Positions 9,610 to 21,423 of a stretch of DNA of 23,710 bases are shown here, piece by piece; the stretch's first letter is position 1, and each line of letters opens with the position of its first letter. The notes beneath the pieces were generated by a model that saw only the letters and a program-made list of their open reading frames with translations, did not search any database and was not told where the DNA came from. A program made the translations under genes and the position numbers. The stretch is taken from positions 1 to 23,710 of the forward strand of contig CAIMBV010000084.1 in NCBI GenBank assembly GCA_903839355.1, given 5' to 3'. Source of the DNA: an uncultured Actinomycetes bacterium. GTDB lineage: Bacteria > Actinomycetota > Actinomycetes > Nanopelagicales > Nanopelagicaceae.

Positions 9610-11541
9610 GTGAGAAAGTTACTTTTTAGCGCCGCCATTGTCATGTCTATTGCCACTCTTAGCTCCGCCCCATCGGGTTATGCGGCGACCACGCAACTAG
9701 GACCTCTCTCGATAATTTCAGTCTCGATTGATCAACAGACGGTTACGGTAACCCCACCTACTTCAAACTCACCCGGCACCTGGTCCATCTCGCTCGATAA
9801 TCCCGCTCTGGCCACCATAAATGGGCTCACCTTGACCCTGAAGGCAGTAGGAGCGGGTCAGTTGACCTTTACTCAGGCAGCAGCTGGCGGCTATAACTCA
9901 GTTAGTCGAAGTACGGTTATCAGAATCAATCCCGGCACTCCAGTGTTGGGAAGCTGGGCTCCCCTGACGACTCCACTGACAGCAGGTACCTTCAAGGTCA
10001 CACCCCCTTCTTCGTCTTCAACAGGAACATGGATCTATACGCTCTCAAATAACGTTTCTAATGGTTACACCTTGGCAACGATTGCAGGCAACATAGTTAC
10101 ATTGCTCGATGCGGGAACCGTGACAATTAATGCCACCCAAGCGGCTACCAGCACCTACTCGAGTGCAACCACGACAAATACCCTGCAGATAACTGCTATT
10201 AAGCCAACCGTCGGCGCATTCTCAGATGTCTCGATATCTAAAGACAGTGTCACCTCATTTAATCTAAAGGTTCCAACCTCAAACTCTCCAGGAGCATGGA
10301 CCTTCACCTCATCACTCCCCGGCGTGGCAAGTGTTGCCGGAAGCGTTGTAACTCCCAATAGTGTTGGAACGACCGTGATTACGGCTCATCAGGCGCCTGC
10401 AGCTGGATTTCAATCGGCGACTTTGATGATGAACTTAACGATTACCGCAACACCTCCAACTGTGGGAACACTAGCGCCGATTAACTACACCCTTGGAAGC
10501 ACCCCTAGTAACAATCTCTCTCTCGTTGCCCCGACTTCAAATTCCACTGGCACCTGGGTATACACGGTTGCCGATCCCGCGATCGCAACAGTTTCGGGTA
10601 ATACCTTGACCATACTAAAGGCGGGGTCGACAACTATCTCCGCTAAACAGAACCCAACAAGCACCTTTGGTTATTCTGCAGTCGTAACCGCGCCTCTTAC
10701 CGTCAATCAGATAGCACCGATTCCTACACTTCCAAATCTCAATCAGGTTGTCGGAGATCCTGCAATTCAAATAACTCCACCAACAACCGGATCTCCTGGC
10801 GCGTGGAGCCTTACTTCAAGTGATCCCTCGATTGCTTCCGTAACAGGACTTTCAATTACTGTTGTGAATGCCGGTAGCGCAACGCTAACGCTAACTCAAG
10901 CGGCTTCTGGTACCTGGTTAACAAACTCGACCACATTCACATTCTCGGTTGCTGGCTTAGTCCCAACTATTGGTTCCCTCTCTCCGATTAATGTGAGTCT
11001 TGGAACACCTGTAACTATTGTTAATCCAACTTCAAACTCAACTGGCGTATGGAGTTATTCCGTAGGTGATAGTGCAATCGCAAAAATAGTAAATAGCCAA
11101 CTGGTTCCGGTCGCCGTAGGAACAACCACGATCTCTGCCGTTCAAAAACCCGCAGGGAAATATGGTCAATCAAATACTGTTCAGAGCACAGTGACGATTA
11201 CTCCTGCTCCAAAGCCAACCCCAACCCCAACCCCAACTCCCACGGTAAAGCCAGTTCCCACACCCACTGTTAAGCCGACCCCAACTCCGACAGTAAAACC
11301 GGTTCCAACACCTACCGTCAAACCAAAACCCACCCCAACTAAAGAGCCAGTTGTTCCGATCGTGAGCGCAAAGGCCGTTGGTCGCTCAATCGTGGTCAGC
11401 GCCAAGAATGGGGTTGTTATCGTCCACATCAATGGACGTATTGGAAAGGTCGGAAAGAACCCCGTCGCTGCTGGAAATGATCTCGTTGTTATCGAATTCC
11501 AATCAAGGGTGATTTACTCTAAAGTCTTTGCCATCAAGTAG
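9610..11541 (+). CDS. Secreted protein with six Ig-like repeats, Pro/Thr linker and C-terminal beta domain
   Basis: A 643-residue exported protein. A signal peptide (MRKLLFSAAIVMSIATL.., cleavage near GYA-A at about 25) is followed by six repeats of roughly 80-90 residues. Each has a PTSNSPGTW-like strand, then an AIATVSG-like and a GTTTISAxQ-like strand: a bacterial Ig-like (Big-type) beta sandwich. Residues 532-580 are a rigid linker containing an eight-residue unit TPTVKPxP four times. Residues 581-643 form a separate, probably beta, C-terminal unit. There is no LPXTG motif or terminal membrane helix, so the mode of attachment is unknown; the tail may bind the wall. GTG start at 9610 with GATAAT (9598-9603) 6 nt upstream suggests a leaderless message. 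Likely adhesin or surface spacer; inferred. Confidence 0.8.
   Translation: MRKLLFSAAIVMSIATLSSAPSGYAATTQLGPLSIISVSIDQQTVTVTPPTSNSPGTWSISLDNPALATINGLTLTLKAVGAGQLTFTQAAAGGYNSVSRSTVIRINPGTPVLGSWAPLTTPLTAGTFKVTPPSSSSTGTWIYTLSNNVSNGYTLATIAGNIVTLLDAGTVTINATQAATSTYSSATTTNTLQITAIKPTVGAFSDVSISKDSVTSFNLKVPTSNSPGAWTFTSSLPGVASVAGSVVTPNSVGTTVITAHQAPAAGFQSATLMMNLTITATPPTVGTLAPINYTLGSTPSNNLSLVAPTSNSTGTWVYTVADPAIATVSGNTLTILKAGSTTISAKQNPTSTFGYSAVVTAPLTVNQIAPIPTLPNLNQVVGDPAIQITPPTTGSPGAWSLTSSDPSIASVTGLSITVVNAGSATLTLTQAASGTWLTNSTTFTFSVAGLVPTIGSLSPINVSLGTPVTIVNPTSNSTGVWSYSVGDSAIAKIVNSQLVPVAVGTTTISAVQKPAGKYGQSNTVQSTVTITPAPKPTPTPTPTPTVKPVPTPTVKPTPTPTVKPVPTPTVKPKPTPTKEPVVPIVSAKAVGRSIVVSAKNGVVIVHINGRIGKVGKNPVAAGNDLVVIEFQSRVIYSKVFAIK
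11203..11349 (+). repeat. Pro/Thr linker-coding repeat
   Basis: Encodes (PT)n then four tandem TPTVKPxP units. The four 24-nt units use different synonymous codons (for example GTA, GTT, GTA, GTC for Val), so the repeat is conserved at protein but not DNA level. Confidence 0.75.
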
Positions 11542-14911: not shown

Positions 14912-16624
14912 ATGTCCACGTTCCGTAATTTAGGTGTTACCCCTGCGCTCTGCGAGGCTCTCGAAGCTCAGGGTATTACCGCTCCCTTTCCTATTCAGAC
15001 CGCCACGCTGCCCGATGCCATAAAGGGACGCGATGTCCTTGGCCGCGGACAGACAGGCTCCGGTAAGACCTTGGCCTTCGGACTGGCAATGTTGACGCGC
15101 CTTAATGGCCGTACCGCCAAGCCTCACAAGCCACTTGGCTTAATTTTGTCTCCTACCCGCGAATTAGCAGTGCAGATCAATGATGTGGTTTCCCCTCTGG
15201 CTCGCAAGATCGGCCTCTCCTCTCAGGTTGTCGCTGGTGGCCTCTCCTACATCGGTCAGATCCAATCCCTCAAGCGTGGAGTTCCTGTAATCGTGGCAAC
15301 TCCCGGTCGTTTGATGGACCTGCTCGAGAAGAAGCACATCGATCTATCAGATGTAATGATCACCGTCCTCGATGAGGCAGATCAGATGGCAGATATGGGT
15401 TTCCTACCTGTTGTTAAAGAGATTCTCTCGCTCACACAAGAGGGTGGACAGCACCTCCTCTTCTCGGCGACCCTTGATCGCGATGTAGATTCACTCGTCA
15501 AGCGATTCCTCAAGGATCCGATCACACACTCGTTGGAGAATGAGAAGTCTCGCGCCGCCGATATGACTCACCACTTGCTATTGCTTGATCAACAACACAA
15601 AGATGAGATCTCATCACAAATTGCAGCTCGCGATGGTCGCACAATCTTCTTCGTTCGCACCAAACATGGCGCTGACAAGCTCGCTGAAAAGATGTTGCGA
15701 AGTGGTGTCCCAGTTGGCGTTCTCCATGGCGGAAAGTCACAAGGTCAACGCACTCGCGTACTCAAGGCATTTAAAGATGGACGTGCATCTGCGCTCGTTG
15801 CAACGGATGTAGCGGCGCGTGGAATTCACGTGGATGATGTCTCACTTGTAGTTCACGTTGATGCCCCTGCAGATCACAAAGATTATTTACACCGTGCCGG
15901 TCGTACTGCCCGCGCTGGTGCAACAGGAACCGTTGTCACACTAGCCACACACAAGCAGAAGAAGGCAGTCTTTGGGATTACCAATCGTGCAGCGGTAAAA
16001 CTCATCGAGAACCAGGTTCGCCCAGGCGATTCAAAGTTGCAAGAGATTACTGGCGCACAAGAGCCATCCGGAATTCCAATCGAGGTCGAAGCAGAGAAAC
16101 CTTCTCGCAATGATCGCAAACCAGGAAGCCGTAGTCGTTCAAATGATCGCGGAAATAGAGATGGTAATTTCAAGCCACGTAAATCTGGCGGTGGACGTTT
16201 TGAGAGTGCACCGAAGACAGAGAGCGTCGAGTCTCGAGAAGAACGCAGTTTCCAACCTGCTCGCGAAGAACGCCGCGCAACTCCAGAGCGTTCTTTCTCA
16301 TCTGATCGTCGACCAAAAGTTGACCGAGCCGAGCGTTCAGATCGTCCCTATCGCTCTGCACCCAAGAAGTGGGAGGAGAAGGCACGCGAATCACGCACTC
16401 GTGAAGAGAGCGCCACTCCAGCCGGAAACCGTGGACGCGTAGAGAGTTCGGCACCTGGTCGACCAGCCAAGAAGGCTCCCCGGATGCCTCTTGAGAAGCG
16501 AATCGCTCTAGAAAAGGCAGAGTCGCGTGCTCGTTCAGGTAAGCCTGGCGCTCCTAAGAAGTTTGCAAAGACTGGCGGTAAGCCTTTTAAAGCTGGAAAA
16601 CCAAGTCAGGCTAAGCGAGGCTAA
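14912..16624 (+). CDS. DEAD-box ATP-dependent RNA helicase with long basic tail
   Basis: A 570-residue RNA helicase, cytoplasmic, likely for RNA remodelling in ribosome assembly or cold adaptation. Q motif and FPIQ (26-29) are present, motif I GQTGSGKT at 46-53, PTREL at 81-85, TPGR at 130-133, DEAD at 154-157, SAT at 185-187, and RAGRTARAG at 328-336. From about residue 385 to the end is a low-complexity tail rich in Arg, Ser, Glu and Lys, probably disordered and RNA-binding. I chose ATG at 14912 (MSTFRNLGV) because it aligns with the family start. An upstream TTG at 14843 would add 23 unconserved residues and run through a leader hairpin. There is no strong Shine-Dalgarno. The 3' end overlaps the convergent hmuV by 14 nt. 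Confidence 0.92.
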   Translation: MSTFRNLGVTPALCEALEAQGITAPFPIQTATLPDAIKGRDVLGRGQTGSGKTLAFGLAMLTRLNGRTAKPHKPLGLILSPTRELAVQINDVVSPLARKIGLSSQVVAGGLSYIGQIQSLKRGVPVIVATPGRLMDLLEKKHIDLSDVMITVLDEADQMADMGFLPVVKEILSLTQEGGQHLLFSATLDRDVDSLVKRFLKDPITHSLENEKSRAADMTHHLLLLDQQHKDEISSQIAARDGRTIFFVRTKHGADKLAEKMLRSGVPVGVLHGGKSQGQRTRVLKAFKDGRASALVATDVAARGIHVDDVSLVVHVDAPADHKDYLHRAGRTARAGATGTVVTLATHKQKKAVFGITNRAAVKLIENQVRPGDSKLQEITGAQEPSGIPIEVEAEKPSRNDRKPGSRSRSNDRGNRDGNFKPRKSGGGRFESAPKTESVESREERSFQPAREERRATPERSFSSDRRPKVDRAERSDRPYRSAPKKWEEKARESRTREESATPAGNRGRVESSAPGRPAKKAPRMPLEKRIALEKAESRARSGKPGAPKKFAKTGGKPFKAGKPSQAKRG

Positions 16625-17216
16625 TAACTCGATCAAAGTACTTTGAGATGGCGTCTTGATTGTGAGAAATCACCAAGACGCCTTTCTTATTAGTTTTCAA
16701 CTCTTGAATAATTTCTAGGATTACTTCGGTCGAGCGAATATCTTGAGCGCTAAATGGTTCATCGAGCAAGTAATAGTTTGCCTCCTGGCTAAGTGCAAGT
16801 GCCAGACTCACTCTCTCTTGTTGACCGATTGAGAGCTCAGTAACTTTCTTTGAGAGCAATTCTTGTAGACCGAGTTTGGAAACAAATCGCGATGGATCTG
16901 CCACGCGCATCTTCTTGGGAAGCACGTGAAGTATTTCGGCAACAGTGAATGCCAAGGTAAATGATCTCCGTTGTGGTGCAATGGAACGTAACTTGGCTTG
17001 TGCAGGGGCGTTCAGGTTGGCAACGCTCAAACCATCGATCTCAATTGTTCCCGATTGAGGTTGTAGCAATCCCCCGATCAATCCTATAAGCGTGCTCTTG
17101 CCGGTTCCATTAGGCCCAGTAAGAAGTACCGCTTCCCCAGTATCTATGTGTGCACTGAAATCACGAAAGATCTGGTGGCTTCCACGCGAAAAAGAGAGTG
17201 ATGAAATGTTAATCAT
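16611..17216 (-). CDS. hmuV: ABC transporter ATPase of a haem/siderophore importer (HmuV-like)
   Basis: A 201-residue ATPase that would power the importer formed with the upstream permease. Walker A GPNGTGKST is at 34-42, and an altered signature LSIGQQERV at 129-137 replaces LSGGQ. Walker B YLLDEP (149-154) has Asp152 and catalytic Glu153; the switch is His185. At 201 residues it is well below the usual 250-270 of the FecE/HmuV group: the C-terminal extension is missing. I chose ATG at 17216 (MINISSLSFSRG) rather than the longer open frame, because it starts at the first beta strand and overlaps the permease stop by 8 nt, as expected for an operon. The haem assignment comes from the binding protein, not from this subunit. 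Confidence 0.75.
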   Translation of the reverse strand: MINISSLSFSRGSHQIFRDFSAHIDTGEAVLLTGPNGTGKSTLIGLIGGLLQPQSGTIEIDGLSVANLNAPAQAKLRSIAPQRRSFTLAFTVAEILHVLPKKMRVADPSRFVSKLGLQELLSKKVTELSIGQQERVSLALALSQEANYYLLDEPFSAQDIRSTEVILEIIQELKTNKKGVLVISHNQDAISKYFDRVISLA

Positions 17217-18189
17217 GCTGTATCCATGATGCGCGTCGTAGCCGTAGCAGAACAATCAAGGCTGGTGCTCCGAGCAGCGAAGTGAGAAGCCCAAGAGGTA
17301 TCTCATTCGGCTCGAAGAGAGTGCGAGCTAAGAGATCTGCCATAAGCAGGACGATTGCGCCGACCAGCGCACTCAGGGAGAGCATCTTTCGATGGGCTGG
17401 ACCAACAAGAAGGCGGACGATATGAGGGACGAGTAAACCGATAAAGGCGATAGAACCGACGGCGCTTACAGAAGCACCAATGAGGAAGGCGAGTCCGATA
17501 ATTGCGTACAGCCGTAAGCGTTTTGGGTTCACGCCCATGTAATGCGATGAACTCTCACCGAGCGAGTAAATATCTAATCTGCGTGAGACCAAGAAAGAGA
17601 TAATGATTCCAACTTCGATATATGGGGCGATCATTCCTACCGTTGAATTATTTAACAGCGTTAAAGATCCAAAATCCCAGAAAGTAATGGATTGAATCCC
17701 AGGCTTCGGTGACATCGAAATTAAGAGGCCAGCAATCGAAGTTAATATTGCAGAGATCGCAATACCAGTAAGCAGAAAGCCGAAACCTTTATTTGGCGCC
17801 AACCATTGGACGAGAAGCGCTGTTAGTGCAGCCGCTAGAACGGCGCTACCGATATTTGCTCTCGTTCCATAGATAGATGCACCTGAAGCAATCAGGGCAA
17901 TCGTTCCTAGAGTTGCACCACTGGATAACCCTATGAGCGTCGGTTCGGCGAGTGGGTTGCGGAAAATTCCCTGCGCAACCGCACCAGCTACTCCAAGACC
18001 CGCGCCAATAATTACCGCTCCAAGCGCTCGGGGAAATCGCACCTGCCACACGGTTGTTGCGTCAATGTTGTGTTTGCCTATGAGTGAGAGAACCGATTGA
18101 TGTAACTGAACGATTCCAATATCGAGTGAGAGCCAGAAGAGAAATAGAAGAAGGATTAATCCACTGCTATAGATCGCTACCTTCTTCAC
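17209..18189 (-). CDS. hmuU: FecCD/BtuC-type permease of a haem importer (HmuU-like)
   Basis: A 326-residue permease of the FecCD family, about ten helices, forming the dimeric membrane channel of a type II importer for haem, siderophores or cobalamin. Family motifs are present: VRFPRALGAVIIGAGLGVAG, QGIFRNPLAEPTLIGLSSG, and near the end VPHIVRLLVGPAHRKMLSLSAL (each in sequence order, interrupted here only by the quoting). EIPLGLLTSLLGAPAL closes the domain. The GTG start at 18189 shares the GTGA overlap with the stop of the upstream binding protein (18186-18189). The permease stop in turn overlaps hmuV. Tight overlaps show one transcription unit, hmuT-hmuU-hmuV. Confidence 0.87.
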   Translation of the reverse strand: MKKVAIYSSGLILLLFLFWLSLDIGIVQLHQSVLSLIGKHNIDATTVWQVRFPRALGAVIIGAGLGVAGAVAQGIFRNPLAEPTLIGLSSGATLGTIALIASGASIYGTRANIGSAVLAAALTALLVQWLAPNKGFGFLLTGIAISAILTSIAGLLISMSPKPGIQSITFWDFGSLTLLNNSTVGMIAPYIEVGIIISFLVSRRLDIYSLGESSSHYMGVNPKRLRLYAIIGLAFLIGASVSAVGSIAFIGLLVPHIVRLLVGPAHRKMLSLSALVGAIVLLMADLLARTLFEPNEIPLGLLTSLLGAPALIVLLRLRRASWIQHD

Positions 18190-19088
18190 AATTTAGCCGC
18201 CGCAATTATGAGTGGACGCAACTGTTGTGCCATTGGAATTGTGCGCGGCCCAAAGGAGAGCAAGAGAGAGTCATCTACTGTGACCACTCTTCGATGTTGT
18301 CCAGCTGGAGTCTCGGCGATTCCAGGAAGTTGAACAAGTCCAGATATTCCTCCCACGGAAGCCAGCCCCTTAGTCATGAGCAGTAATACATCCGGCTGTA
18401 ATTTGATCAGCTCTTCTGCAGTGAGCGCATTAAAAGGATTCTTCAAGTTAGCCGCCCCGACATCGGTAAATCCTTCGGCCTGAAGAATTGAGTCTGCTCC
18501 AGAACCAGGACCACCGATGAGATAAATTGAAGCTGTACCTCGAACATAAAGAAAGGCCACCTTGATACCAGTCTTTGGCGCTTTGAGCGATGTCACTTGA
18601 GCCTCAAGCGCTCTTCCCGCTTTAGGTGTCCCCAGTACCTGAGCGATCGTGCTCTCCTTTGCAGTTATATCTGCCAATGTGAAAGCACTTGGGATCATTA
18701 CTAATTTCACCTTTGCCGCTTTTAGAGTTGCTAGCGCCGTAGAAGGTGAGGTGTTTGAATCAATGAGTACTAGATCGGGGTGCTGCCCTAGGACTGCCTC
18801 TGCAGACACCTGCATCGCCGACTCATCGATTGGTATTGCCTTTAACTCTGGCATTGTGGAGGCAACATCGCGTCCTACTAAAATAGATTTGTAACCTAAC
18901 GCAGCGACAATCTCCGCCGATCCATTTGCCAAGGCAACCACTCGCTTGTATCGAGGAACTTCACCGCTATGAACAATTGGCAATGAGATTTGCGTTGCAC
19001 TTATATCTGACACCGCTGCGTAAGCTGTAGGTGAAAATGTGGTCAAAAGCAGGCATGCCACGCCTAACGCAACCGCTCGTGACTTCAT
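18186..19088 (-). CDS. hmuT: Periplasmic-binding-type haem-binding protein (HmuT-like)
   Basis: A 300-residue extracellular solute-binding protein of the helical-backbone (PF01497-type) group that should deliver ligand to the HmuU/HmuV importer. PRYKRVVALANGSAEIVAALGY opens the first lobe. LLLMTKGLASVGGISGL followed by LPGIAETPAGQHRRVV and, near the end, LSFGPRT are typical of HmuT haem-binding proteins rather than ferrichrome or B12 proteins. The signal peptide has a probable signal peptidase I site at AYA-AV (about 26). The only Cys near the start (residue 12) does not fit a lipobox, so the protein lacks the lipid anchor usual in monoderm bacteria. I chose ATG at 19088; the longer frame adds residues before the signal. 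TAACAAT lies 6-7 nt upstream, so it may be leaderless. Confidence 0.8.
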   Translation of the reverse strand: MKSRAVALGVACLLLTTFSPTAYAAVSDISATQISLPIVHSGEVPRYKRVVALANGSAEIVAALGYKSILVGRDVASTMPELKAIPIDESAMQVSAEAVLGQHPDLVLIDSNTSPSTALATLKAAKVKLVMIPSAFTLADITAKESTIAQVLGTPKAGRALEAQVTSLKAPKTGIKVAFLYVRGTASIYLIGGPGSGADSILQAEGFTDVGAANLKNPFNALTAEELIKLQPDVLLLMTKGLASVGGISGLVQLPGIAETPAGQHRRVVTVDDSLLLSFGPRTIPMAQQLRPLIIAAAKL

Positions 19089-19111
19089 CCGCGTATTGTT
19101 ACATCTCCTTT

Positions 19112-19138
19112 TCCGACATGGGTGGTTCACCTGTCGGA
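19112..19138. promoter_or_regulatory. Candidate operator between hmuT and the divergent secreted protein genes
   Basis: TCCGACA (19112-19118) is mirrored by TGTCGGA (19132-19138), and inside it GGTG (19121-19124) is mirrored by CACC (19128-19131). The arms match over 11 positions apart from a 2-nt bulge. If both divergent messages are leaderless, this covers the -35 region of hmuT and the upstream edge of the other promoter. Likely bound by a dimeric regulator; which one is unknown. Confidence 0.55.
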
Positions 19139-19171
19139 GCGAAAATCGTCCACTTCTTCTACATTATCGCC

Positions 19172-19648
19172 ATGAAACTCAAGGTCGGTGCCTTACTAGG
19201 TCTCCTACTCATGCTTGGTGGAACTCCAGCTTTTGCAGCAACAGGTCAACACGGAGAGGTTCTGACGGCGGTTCCAACATCTGGAATCAAGTCAGGTCAG
19301 ATCATCAGTGTGAGTGGCAAGAACTTTGATACCACAGTTGGAATCTACGTTGAGATGTGCCAAATAGTTCCCACCGGGACTCTTCCTGAGGTATGCGGGG
19401 GCGGAGTGAACATGACAGGGGCAAGCGCCGCCTCTTTCTGGATCTCCTCTAACCCACCTAGCTACGGCAAGAACTTAGCTATTCCATTTAAAGCTGGGGG
19501 TACTTTCAAAGTTGGACTCAAAGTCCAGCCACTCATTGGAAAAGTCGATTGCCGCAAAGTGCAATGTGCCATCTATGTGCGAGCAGATCACACTCGAACT
19601 CAAGATCGCACCCACGATATAAAGATTCCGATTTCATTTGCCAAGTAA
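19172..19648 (+). CDS. Secreted neocarzinostatin-like four-cysteine protein 1
   Basis: A 158-residue protein with a signal peptide (cleavage near AFA-A, residue 22-23) and a mature beta-rich domain. TAVPTSGIKSGQIISVSG is like the first strands of the neocarzinostatin fold (SxGLxDGxxVxVxG). Cys63, Cys75, Cys127 and Cys132 match that fold's two disulfides; the second pair has the same C-x4-C spacing, in VDCRKVQC, and is followed by a terminal IPISF strand. It is clearly homologous to the next protein. There is no membrane anchor. I chose ATG at 19172 (MKLKVG); TACATT (19160-19165) is 6 nt upstream, so it is probably leaderless. Position opposite hmuTUV suggests a role in binding haem or another ligand outside the cell; inferred. 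Confidence 0.72.
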   Translation: MKLKVGALLGLLLMLGGTPAFAATGQHGEVLTAVPTSGIKSGQIISVSGKNFDTTVGIYVEMCQIVPTGTLPEVCGGGVNMTGASAASFWISSNPPSYGKNLAIPFKAGGTFKVGLKVQPLIGKVDCRKVQCAIYVRADHTRTQDRTHDIKIPISFAK

Positions 19649-19676
19649 GCCCTTACAAATAAGAAAAGAGAAAAAA

Positions 19677-20117
19677 ATGAGAAAGAAGCTCATAGCAGCC
19701 GCCGCGGTCGCTCTCGTTGTGATGGCAGCACCGCTTGCCAACGCTAAGGCGATCGTGACTGTAACCCCAAGTAAGAATTTGCCACAGAAGGGTGCCGTGG
19801 TCACATTTAAATTTGCCAAGATGCCAGCGAAGAATGGCCTCTATGCTGAGGAGTGCATGGCCCCTGCAACTAAAGGCGCTACTCCAACAGTCTGTGATTC
19901 AGACCAGAAAGTTCAGGCCTGGGTGTCAACAGTAAAGGCTGATCTTGCGCAAGGAGCTACCTCAGCGAAGGGCAAAGTTACCTTCAAGCCAGTCCCCTAC
20001 TTCACTAACGGAGATTGCGTCCACACGACTTGCGTCTTCTTCATTACCAACGATCACAATGCCGCTGGTGATAAGTCTCAAGATCAAACGATTCCGTTTA
20101 CCTTCTCAAATAAATAA
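19677..20117 (+). CDS. Secreted neocarzinostatin-like four-cysteine protein 2
   Basis: A 146-residue protein, 28 nt after the first and homologous to it. The signal peptide ends near ANA-K (residue 23). Cys60, Cys73, Cys114 and Cys119 align with those of protein 1. Shared landmarks are (I/L)Y.E.C, P.VC, a Trp about ten residues on, DC...C, a DH pair (126-127) followed by spaced Asp residues, and a closing IPFTF strand. The ATG at 19677 follows an A/G-rich run (AAGAAAAGAG) acting as a weak ribosome site, so it is probably translated from the same message. The two copies have diverged considerably in sequence, so duplication is old. Ligand unknown. Confidence 0.72.
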   Translation: MRKKLIAAAAVALVVMAAPLANAKAIVTVTPSKNLPQKGAVVTFKFAKMPAKNGLYAEECMAPATKGATPTVCDSDQKVQAWVSTVKADLAQGATSAKGKVTFKPVPYFTNGDCVHTTCVFFITNDHNAAGDKSQDQTIPFTFSNK

Positions 20118-20137: not shown

Positions 20138-20725
20138 TTAGTTTTTCGGCAGAGCTCGAAGTCCAGCTAGCGCGAAAGCAACAGCGCTCTGGATTTCGAG
20201 CTCTGCATCATTACCGGCATCTATTCGAATTGATGCCGCATCTGTAACACTTGATAAAAGCGCTGCGGCTACTCTTACATCTGCAACTCCGGTTTGCGAT
20301 AGAGCCTCTTGAAGCGGCGCCATCATTCGGCGGTGACCCAAAAGAATTTCATCTTTACGGGCATCGGGAGTAGTTATTGTGTTGAGAGACTTGACCAACA
20401 TATGCCTGCCATCTGCAACGTAGCGCAGACTCTCCGATATCCAAAGTTCAATTCGCTCAAATGGATCTTGCGTACCTTTTGTCGCCGTTGCCAAGCGTTG
20501 GGTGTAGTAGTCAAGCTCTTCTAAAACTAAATCGGCAACAAGATCCGCGCTGGATGCAAAATATTCGTAGATAGAACTTCGAGCTAATCCCGCCTTGGCT
20601 GCAACTGCTGCAACAGTTATCGACTCAGCTCCGGTTGCCAAGGCTAACTCCATGGCGGCATCCATTAACTGCTGGCGGCGCAACTCACGGTGAAGGACAA
20701 CTGTAGGTGCTTGGATCTTTGGCAT
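20138..20725 (-). CDS. TetR-family transcriptional regulator
   Basis: A 195-residue repressor-type protein. The N-terminal helix-turn-helix spans about residues 17-60: RRQQLMDAAMELALATG, ITVAAVAAKAGLARSSIYEYF. The C-terminal ligand-binding and dimer domain is helical (about 65-190). It is divergent from the azoreductase gene, and a perfect 24-bp palindrome lies in the gap, so autoregulation and control of azoR are the simple model. The ATG at 20725 fits the usual distance to the HTH. Inducer unknown, perhaps a quinone, azo or other redox-active compound given the partner. Confidence 0.9.
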   Translation of the reverse strand: MPKIQAPTVVLHRELRRQQLMDAAMELALATGAESITVAAVAAKAGLARSSIYEYFASSADLVADLVLEELDYYTQRLATATKGTQDPFERIELWISESLRYVADGRHMLVKSLNTITTPDARKDEILLGHRRMMAPLQEALSQTGVADVRVAAALLSSVTDAASIRIDAGNDAELEIQSAVAFALAGLRALPKN

Positions 20726-20814: not shown

Positions 20815-21423
20815 ATGTCTGATCTATTGCACCTAGAAGTAAGCCCATTAGGGGAGTATTCGATTTCACGCTCAATTTCTAAAGAGTTTCTGGAAGCTTT
20901 TGTTGCTCAAAATCCGGGTGCGGTCATTGTTAGCCGTGACCTGGCTAAGGACCCAATTCCCCATCTTGATGGCGAGACGCTCATGGCGGGGCGAACTGCA
21001 GAGGCTGATCGATCAGCCTCTGCGCAGGCCAAGCATGAGTATCGCCTGGGCTTAGCGCAGGAGGTTAATGAGGCTAAACACATCTTGATATCTACGCCTA
21101 TGTGGAACTTCACGGTTCCTTCCGTGCTTAAGGCGTGGGTTGATCAGATAATCATTACCGGTTTTACGAAAGTTAAAGGCAAGGTCACGCTCATAATCTC
21201 TCAAGGTGGCTCATATGCTCCAGGTGCACCACGTGCTGGATGGGACTGGGAAACGGGATACCTGAAGCAGGTCTTTGAATCACTTGGTGCAACAGATGTC
21301 ACCATTATTTTATCTGAGTTTGGATTGGCTGGAATAGTTCCTGCTCTTGCGGATTTCATCGATCGAAAAAATGAATCGATAGCTGCTGCAAAAGTGACAG
21401 CTAGGGTACGAGCCAGCGCTTAA
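20815..21423 (+). CDS. azoR: FMN-dependent NADH-azoreductase / quinone reductase
   Basis: A 202-residue flavodoxin-fold reductase that uses FMN and NAD(P)H to reduce quinones and azo compounds by two electrons; cytoplasmic homodimer in the family. The phosphate-binding loop is EVSPLGEYSISRSI (residues 8-21). The second FMN-contacting motif TPMWNFTVPSVLKAWVDQI (about 93-111) is the AzoR form of PMYNFxIPxxLKxWID. ISQGGSYAPG (about 127-136) is the third conserved loop. The ATG at 20815 is preceded by AAGG (20805-20808). Likely repressed by the divergent TetR protein. The stop overlaps that of the convergent transporter (21420-21423). Confidence 0.9.
   Translation: MSDLLHLEVSPLGEYSISRSISKEFLEAFVAQNPGAVIVSRDLAKDPIPHLDGETLMAGRTAEADRSASAQAKHEYRLGLAQEVNEAKHILISTPMWNFTVPSVLKAWVDQIIITGFTKVKGKVTLIISQGGSYAPGAPRAGWDWETGYLKQVFESLGATDVTIILSEFGLAGIVPALADFIDRKNESIAAAKVTARVRASA

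Follow-up and report, generated by a model that had tools for sequence, protein, structure and literature searches.

Surface relays of haem that feed an ATP-binding cassette (ABC) importer are known from the NEAT domains of Firmicutes, and proteins of the neocarzinostatin fold bind flat ligands within a cleft. HtaA/CR domains (PF04213) are beta-sandwich domains encoded beside hmuTUV importer genes and are described as binding haem iron via a tyrosine with a helper histidine or tyrosine (available part of PMC12494546). Nanopelagicales (acI), which rank among the most abundant freshwater bacteria, are reported as an order to be haem auxotrophs (excerpts of PMC10202952 and PMC12381374). A stretch of 23,710 nucleotides from an uncultured member of the Nanopelagicaceae (assembly GCA_903839355.1, contig CAIMBV010000084.1; hereafter the window) was analyzed, in which an hmuTUV operon diverges from two tandem genes for small secreted proteins, here called A and B (Table 1). 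A and B are probably secreted partners of HmuTUV that capture haem, or a different tetrapyrrole, and deliver it to HmuT.

Within the window's family, an extracellular haem relay feeding HmuTUV independently of HtaA is the best reading of the locus and has a good chance of being correct. It draws on fold prediction, linkage, joint presence and absence, a conserved palindrome and HtaA fusions of related domains. Genomic data can hardly make the association of A and B with haem import firmer; A and B themselves likely bind haem, and may transfer it to HmuT. The original prediction had proposed an extracellular haem binder or relay, which the fold match and a linkage to hmuTUV beyond the genus support. 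In the open-licence literature searched, no paper containing both neocarzinostatin and HtaA was found, and none of the matches listed for haem uptake (20 of 198 and 8 of 487) brought neocarzinostatin into connection with it; as far as these searches reach, an extracellular haem relay on this fold is new.

Comparison with described systems

A and B resemble the apoproteins of the neocarzinostatin family (neocarzinostatin, macromomycin, C-1027 and kedarcidin) in predicted fold, in the places of their cysteine pairs and in being secreted by actinobacteria. They differ from that family in scoring below the Pfam and NCBIfam cut-offs, in an invariant Asp-His (DH) pair, in an additional WISSNPPSYG loop in A and in their linkage to haem import. 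No gene of enediyne type stood out when the frames of the window, some of which were also scanned, were read directly. The position beside hmuTUV and the beta sandwich are shared with HtaA/CR domains, whose reported axial tyrosine and helper histidine would be mirrored by Tyr59 and His140 of A; neither A nor B matched PF04213. The architecture proposed for A and B is that of NEAT relays, and Pfam gave no NEAT row with E of 1 or below for either protein.

The best solved relative of both profiles was ThiX of the Corynebacterium glutamicum bcc-aa3 supercomplex (PDB 7qhm chain M; E 3.8e-5 and 9.4e-6), which shares Y-x3-C, W, DC-x4-C and DH with A and B. ThiX is described as a lipid-anchored supercomplex subunit whose soluble domain was unresolved (available part of PMC8795186); A and B, unlike it, lack a lipobox on direct reading.

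Linkage of A with hmuTU

Among genomes drawn around the window's genus, A was found in 22 of 25 of the genus itself and in none of 16 of other genera. hmuT was divergent from A in all 20 genus loci examined, and four loci with differing outer neighbors (L038, L040, L041 and L046) retained the hmuT-A unit. Of 296 genomes of the class, representing 114 genera, 60 from 26 genera contained A at E ≤ 0.01, and 52 of these at E < 1e-20. Loci were examined for 40 of the 49 strong-A genomes outside the window's genus, and HmuT together with HmuU was encoded within the stretch in 37 of the 40. A scan of genome contigs, overlapping largely with the genus loci, gave 80 contigs with A; HmuT scored above 60 bits on 77 and the other three were cut by the contig end. 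A-bearing loci include those of Ca. Planktophila lacus, IMCC26077, Actinoplanes, Paractinoplanes, Nonomuraea, Actinomadura and Crossiella. The co-occurrence with hmuTUV anticipated by the original prediction thus extends far beyond the window's genus.

Twenty stretches around other neocarzinostatin-type genes served as controls (19 from a PF00960-type search and L191 from the A search). HmuT with HmuU was present in one, L191, itself A-like (E 4.6e-11); L192 encoded a permease of the FecCD type and scarcely anything like HmuT.

Two or three A-like copies were present in L069 and in loci of Nonomuraea, Actinomadura and Crossiella (L150, L159, L164 and L167), one copy being joined to a WxL wall-binding domain in L159 and, below the cut-off, in L164. 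An hmu-A locus was also carried by L141, L142 and L172, labelled as metagenome-assembled genomes of Bifidobacterium breve; these labels look doubtful.

Joint presence and absence

In 121 Nanopelagicaceae genomes, A was called at E ≤ 1e-8 (50 genomes) and HmuT at E ≤ 1e-30 (49 genomes). Both were present in 48, A only in two (G340 and, by a weak match, G115), HmuT only in one (G399) and neither in 70 (Fisher p 4e-30, uncorrected for kinship). The matched stretches were 118–310 bp apart in the 48 genomes with both. Eight genera (g1, g18, g19, g20, g21, g117, g125 and g126) each contained genomes with both genes and genomes with neither, so the pair was probably gained or lost together several times within the family. 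Since A and B are encoded beside the importer and the sets are present or absent together, A and B are probably an unrecognized means of catching haem outside the cell.

In the 296 class genomes, HmuT was called at E ≤ 1e-40; one class-wide search behind the A, HmuT and HtaA counts scored at most 8 candidates per genome. HmuT was present in 49 of the 52 genomes with a strong A match, and one of the three without it (G137) has A less than 1 kb from a contig end. The 94 HmuT-bearing genomes divided into 25 with A and HtaA, 24 with A only, 37 with HtaA only and 8 with neither.

HtaA (PF04213) was found in none of the 121 family genomes, and neither in the window's 69%-complete genome nor in A or B, in agreement with the original prediction that no HtaA-type surface haem protein is present here. 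Elsewhere in the class, HtaA and a neocarzinostatin-type domain occurred in one frame in 22 genomes (matched via contig and frame length); the latter domain was recognized by PF00960 at E ≤ 1e-3 in 21, some below the cut-off, and by the A profile in G118, and the A profile matched 12 of the 22 frames. In L087, hmuT and A are separated by a haem oxygenase gene, and A is followed by the fusion examined in detail, a frame of 1834 aa that combines two neocarzinostatin domains with three HtaA domains. An HtaA-WxL gene adjoins A in Actinoplanes lutulentus (L145), with a haem oxygenase gene ~2.4 kb away, and lies downstream of hmuV in Nonomuraea solani (L164). The earlier suggestion that A and B are an alternative to HtaA therefore stands within the window's family; in the rest of the class the fusions and the joint occurrence of A with HtaA make A its partner instead.

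Ferrochelatase, which inserts the iron in haem synthesis, was found in 8 of the 121 family genomes (G010, G138, G327, G370, G384, G225, G398 and G402), none of them with A or HmuT; G010 is 99% complete and belongs to the window's genus. These eight genomes contrast with a 2020 paper (PMC7527133) that recorded no haem synthesis pathway for any Nanopelagicales.

Relatedness and predicted fold of A and B

On direct reading, A and B each begin with a cleavable-looking signal peptide. Four cysteines are present in A (C63, C75, C127 and C132) and in B (C60, C73, C114 and C119), the second pair being C-x4-C in both. The proteins are 25% identical (pairwise E 1.6e-5) and homologous along their length (profile-profile probability 97.6, E 4.7e-12), so that the first description of two tandem homologous secreted proteins was confirmed.

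AlphaFold2 models were built from 38 sequences for A and 32 for B (predicted local distance difference test scores 83.7 and 84.3). A Foldseek search with the A model returned 13 PDB chains at E ≤ 1e-3, of which eleven are neocarzinostatin-family proteins or mutants; the other two are from entry 4jw3, which shares its title with a paper describing binders to a variant of neocarzinostatin (available part of PMC3754942). The B model gave a single chain at 1e-3, the kedarcidin apoprotein. With VIA-align the neocarzinostatin family filled the ten best rows for both models, and the Z step to unrelated rows was clear for B (8.9 to 7.1) and smaller for A (9.7 to 8.4). Both proteins are accordingly modelled as the immunoglobulin-like beta sandwich of the neocarzinostatin family, whose solved structures were the best matches of both models.

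At the level of sequence the resemblance noted originally was weak. A scored 21.1 bits against PF00960 (gathering cut-off 25) and B had no match; against the enediyne chromoprotein model NF040680 (cut-off 86) A scored 36.4 bits (E 4e-9) and B 27.8 bits (E 1.9e-6). Many relatives of A carry a precomputed PF00960.26 label. The A profile aligned with eight PF00960 domains at a probability of 96 (E 4e-9), and two cysteine pairs fell at matching places, for A in this alignment and for B via its alignment to A.

Conserved residues and candidate haem contacts

In 127 non-identical A domains scoring above 90 bits against the A profile, Tyr59, Cys63, Cys75, Trp90, Cys132, Asp139, His140 and Asp149 were invariant, and Arg137 and Arg146 (126 of 127) and Cys127 (125 of 127) nearly so. 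The DH pair singled out in the original prediction is thus Asp139-His140, conserved throughout. The invariant columns of 32 B sequences likewise include Y-x3-C, W, C-x4-C and DH.

By a cysteine-based alignment, and in neocarzinostatin numbering, Tyr59 of A corresponds to position 33 and Arg137 to position 98. Engineered crevice positions of neocarzinostatin are given as 33, 37, 47, 52, 78 and 98 (available part of PMC3754942). By analogy with HtaA domains, Tyr59 and His140 may form an axial-tyrosine and helper-histidine pair, and Arg137 may meet a haem propionate.

Location of A and the B' variant

The ends of A were surveyed in 140 frames shorter than 450 aa (repeats included). In 102, the window's relatives among them, the frame ended at most 30 residues past the domain. 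The remaining 38, mostly from high-GC relatives, ran on, mostly into a linker and a transmembrane-like tail, and 15 of these contained an LAxTG-like signal by regular expression. It is therefore likely that members of the window's family release A and that other relatives keep it at the envelope.

In nine genus loci (L038, L040, L041 and L046–L051) B was replaced by B', a protein of 309–341 aa whose N-terminal domain resembles B and which has additional domains; B' of L048 was scanned and had no Pfam row. In IMCC26077 (L143), a stretch similar to the C-terminal part of B' follows A itself. A B'-type piece in L158 passed the PF00960 cut-off (27.5 bits). For four other proteins, two of them complete B' proteins and two A proteins of high-GC relatives, Pfam gave no row at E 0.01.

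HmuT and the haem-type importer

HmuT matched 5gj3 (phmmer E 8.6e-36) and the Corynebacterium HmuT, CgHmuT (5az3, E 1.4e-33). Of the 12 solved structures related to it at E ≤ 1e-6, five carry the name of a haem- or hemin-binding protein and four more appear, from their substitutions, to be CgHmuT and its mutants. With the ligand residues of CgHmuT taken from the available part of PMC4926363, the equivalents of Tyr240 and Arg242 were kept in the window HmuT and in 19 of 19 aligned HmuT. The axial His141 was His in 17 of the 19. Unlike CgHmuT, HmuT of the window's clade has Met at this position (among the 19, the window protein and that of L042) and lacks a lipobox.

Regular expressions found no lipobox in HmuT at any of the 15 short-B loci, and Met in place of the axial His at 14 of them; in loci with the long B', lipobox and His were both present in 33 of 42. 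The lack of both features looks like an event in one clade.

Palindrome, promoter and TetR gene

A palindrome, CCGACA-N13-TGTCGG, is probably the operator shared by the hmuT and A promoters. In 79 non-identical divergent hmuT-A gaps (some loci entered by two routes), it was exact in 32, had one mismatch in 27 (at most one in 59) and two to four in 20; shuffled gaps reached at most one mismatch in 0–5%. Exact sites numbered 21 in 17 of 31 genus genomes; no fewer than 15 of these sites lie in hmuT-A gaps already known, and the backward control pattern gave one site. The window's genome, 69% complete, has a single exact site, the one in Table 1. TACATT is the probable -10 box of A, from its sequence, and would give a leaderless transcript; of 21 aligned genus rows, 18 have TANATT here, the other three having been reversed by the aligner and left unread.

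A TetR gene followed B in 19 of 20 genus loci and in 40 of 46 further loci scanned (two entered twice; three of the six misses are cut contigs), and its product is a candidate reader of the palindrome. Both the TetR gene and the palindrome belong to the locus and were absent from the original prediction.

Proposed mechanism and alternative explanations

In the relay proposed here, haem (or another tetrapyrrole) reaching the cell exterior would be bound in the neocarzinostatin-type cleft of A or B, handed to HmuT and passed on to HmuUV, and in Nanopelagicaceae would serve as an acquired cofactor. Several observations weigh against it. Three A loci (L088, L091 and L092) have no hmuTU alongside, and a strong A match was absent from 45 of the 94 HmuT-bearing class genomes. 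The window HmuT carries Met where the haem-ligand His is expected. The B profile reached a probability of only 14 against PF00960 domains, so its family placement rests on the B model and on A. The pocket in A is assigned by alignment, not from model coordinates, and the invariant Tyr and His could instead have a structural role or contact other proteins. That A is missing from genomes with ferrochelatase is weak evidence by itself (Fisher p 0.02, uncorrected). Finally, 62 of the 70 family genomes without A and HmuT, some of them incomplete, also lack ferrochelatase, and the locus is therefore not the sole answer to haem auxotrophy there. At least two such triple-negative genomes (e.g., G149 and G179) are single-contig and 99–100% complete.

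A and B might hold no haem at all and act as receptors for haem proteins or as envelope docks for HmuT, which alone would bind the ligand. This is unlikely, although retention may be needed where HmuT of the clade has no lipobox, many high-GC relatives have a transmembrane or sorting-like A tail, and the invariant residues of A could form a protein contact. A and B are unanchored too in the window's clade, however, and neocarzinostatin folds are known for holding flat ligands in their cleft; Tyr59 and the near-invariant Arg137 moreover align with crevice positions. It is less probable still that the importer, with A and B, carries a different tetrapyrrole, a corrinoid or a siderophore. Importers of the FecCD/Peripla_BP_2 type serve several ligands, the best NCBIfam rows of the permease are a putative F420-0 permease and BtuC, and the window HmuT has Met for the haem-ligand His; yet haem-type proteins lead the solved relatives of HmuT, the Tyr-Arg pair of CgHmuT is kept, and loci elsewhere include HtaA proteins and haem oxygenase. 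Little speaks for the idea that A and B buffer or detoxify surplus extramembrane haem, or serve the respiratory chain as ThiX does, and are merely co-regulated with the importer. Although ThiX is the best solved relative of both profiles, of the 51 family genomes that encode A or HmuT, 48 encode both, and no respiratory gene was found by Pfam among the seven window neighbors scanned.

A broader and rather speculative possibility is that the DH branch of the neocarzinostatin fold (Y-x3-C...W...DC-x4-C...DH) is a general extramembrane haem-handling module of actinobacteria, secreted or anchored beside HmuTUV, joined with HtaA in very large surface proteins, and lipid-anchored as ThiX on the haem-rich bcc-aa3 supercomplex. 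ThiX would then hold haem rather than act in thiamine synthesis, and a family of haem carriers would be built on the scaffold of the enediyne carriers. Should the relay through A and B itself be correct, the neocarzinostatin fold, known from antibiotic carriers, would gain a nutritional role, and many actinobacteria would gain a haem-uptake part that is now mostly unnamed or annotated as hypothetical. With two secreted proteins, the importer, a probable operator and the candidate ligand residues all specified, the locus is open to direct testing.

Locus layout and neighboring genes

The haem-type substrate-binding protein, FecCD permease and ABC ATPase share one operon, read originally as overlapping hmuTUV genes; the overlaps are 8 bases (hmuV/hmuU) and 4 bases (hmuU/hmuT). 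hmuV may alternatively start at an upstream TTG, which would extend it to 17255, and its best NCBIfam model is the haem ABC transporter ATPase PRK13548, with a score below the cut-off. The gap between hmuT and A is 83 bases. A starts at the ATG downstream of the palindrome and not at the upstream GTG of its open frame.

Table 1. Features of the hmuTUV-A-B locus, in positions of the window.
Feature	Positions	Strand	Evidence or remark
hmuV, importer ATPase	16611-17216	-	ABC_tran E 1.2e-26 (Pfam)
hmuU, FecCD-type permease	17209-18189	-	FecCD E 1.1e-77 (Pfam)
hmuT, haem-type substrate-binding protein	18186-19088	-	Peripla_BP_2 (Pfam); signal peptide without lipobox
Palindrome CCGACA-N13-TGTCGG	19113-19137	.	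Probable operator common to the divergent hmuT and A promoters
TACATT, probable -10 box of A	19160-19165	+	Direct reading; 6 bases before the A ATG
Gene A, secreted protein of predicted neocarzinostatin fold, 158 aa	19172-19648	+	
Gene B, second secreted protein of predicted neocarzinostatin fold, 146 aa	19677-20117	+	
TetR-family regulator, convergent with B, last gene of the conserved locus	20138-20725	-	TetR_N E 9.6e-10 (Pfam)

A Flavodoxin_2 gene for a flavodoxin-fold reductase (20815-21423) adjoins the TetR gene and was present in 7 of 20 genus loci. At 9610-11541 the window encodes a secreted-looking protein of 643 aa with repeated units and a proline-threonine-rich stretch, on direct reading probably a surface protein.

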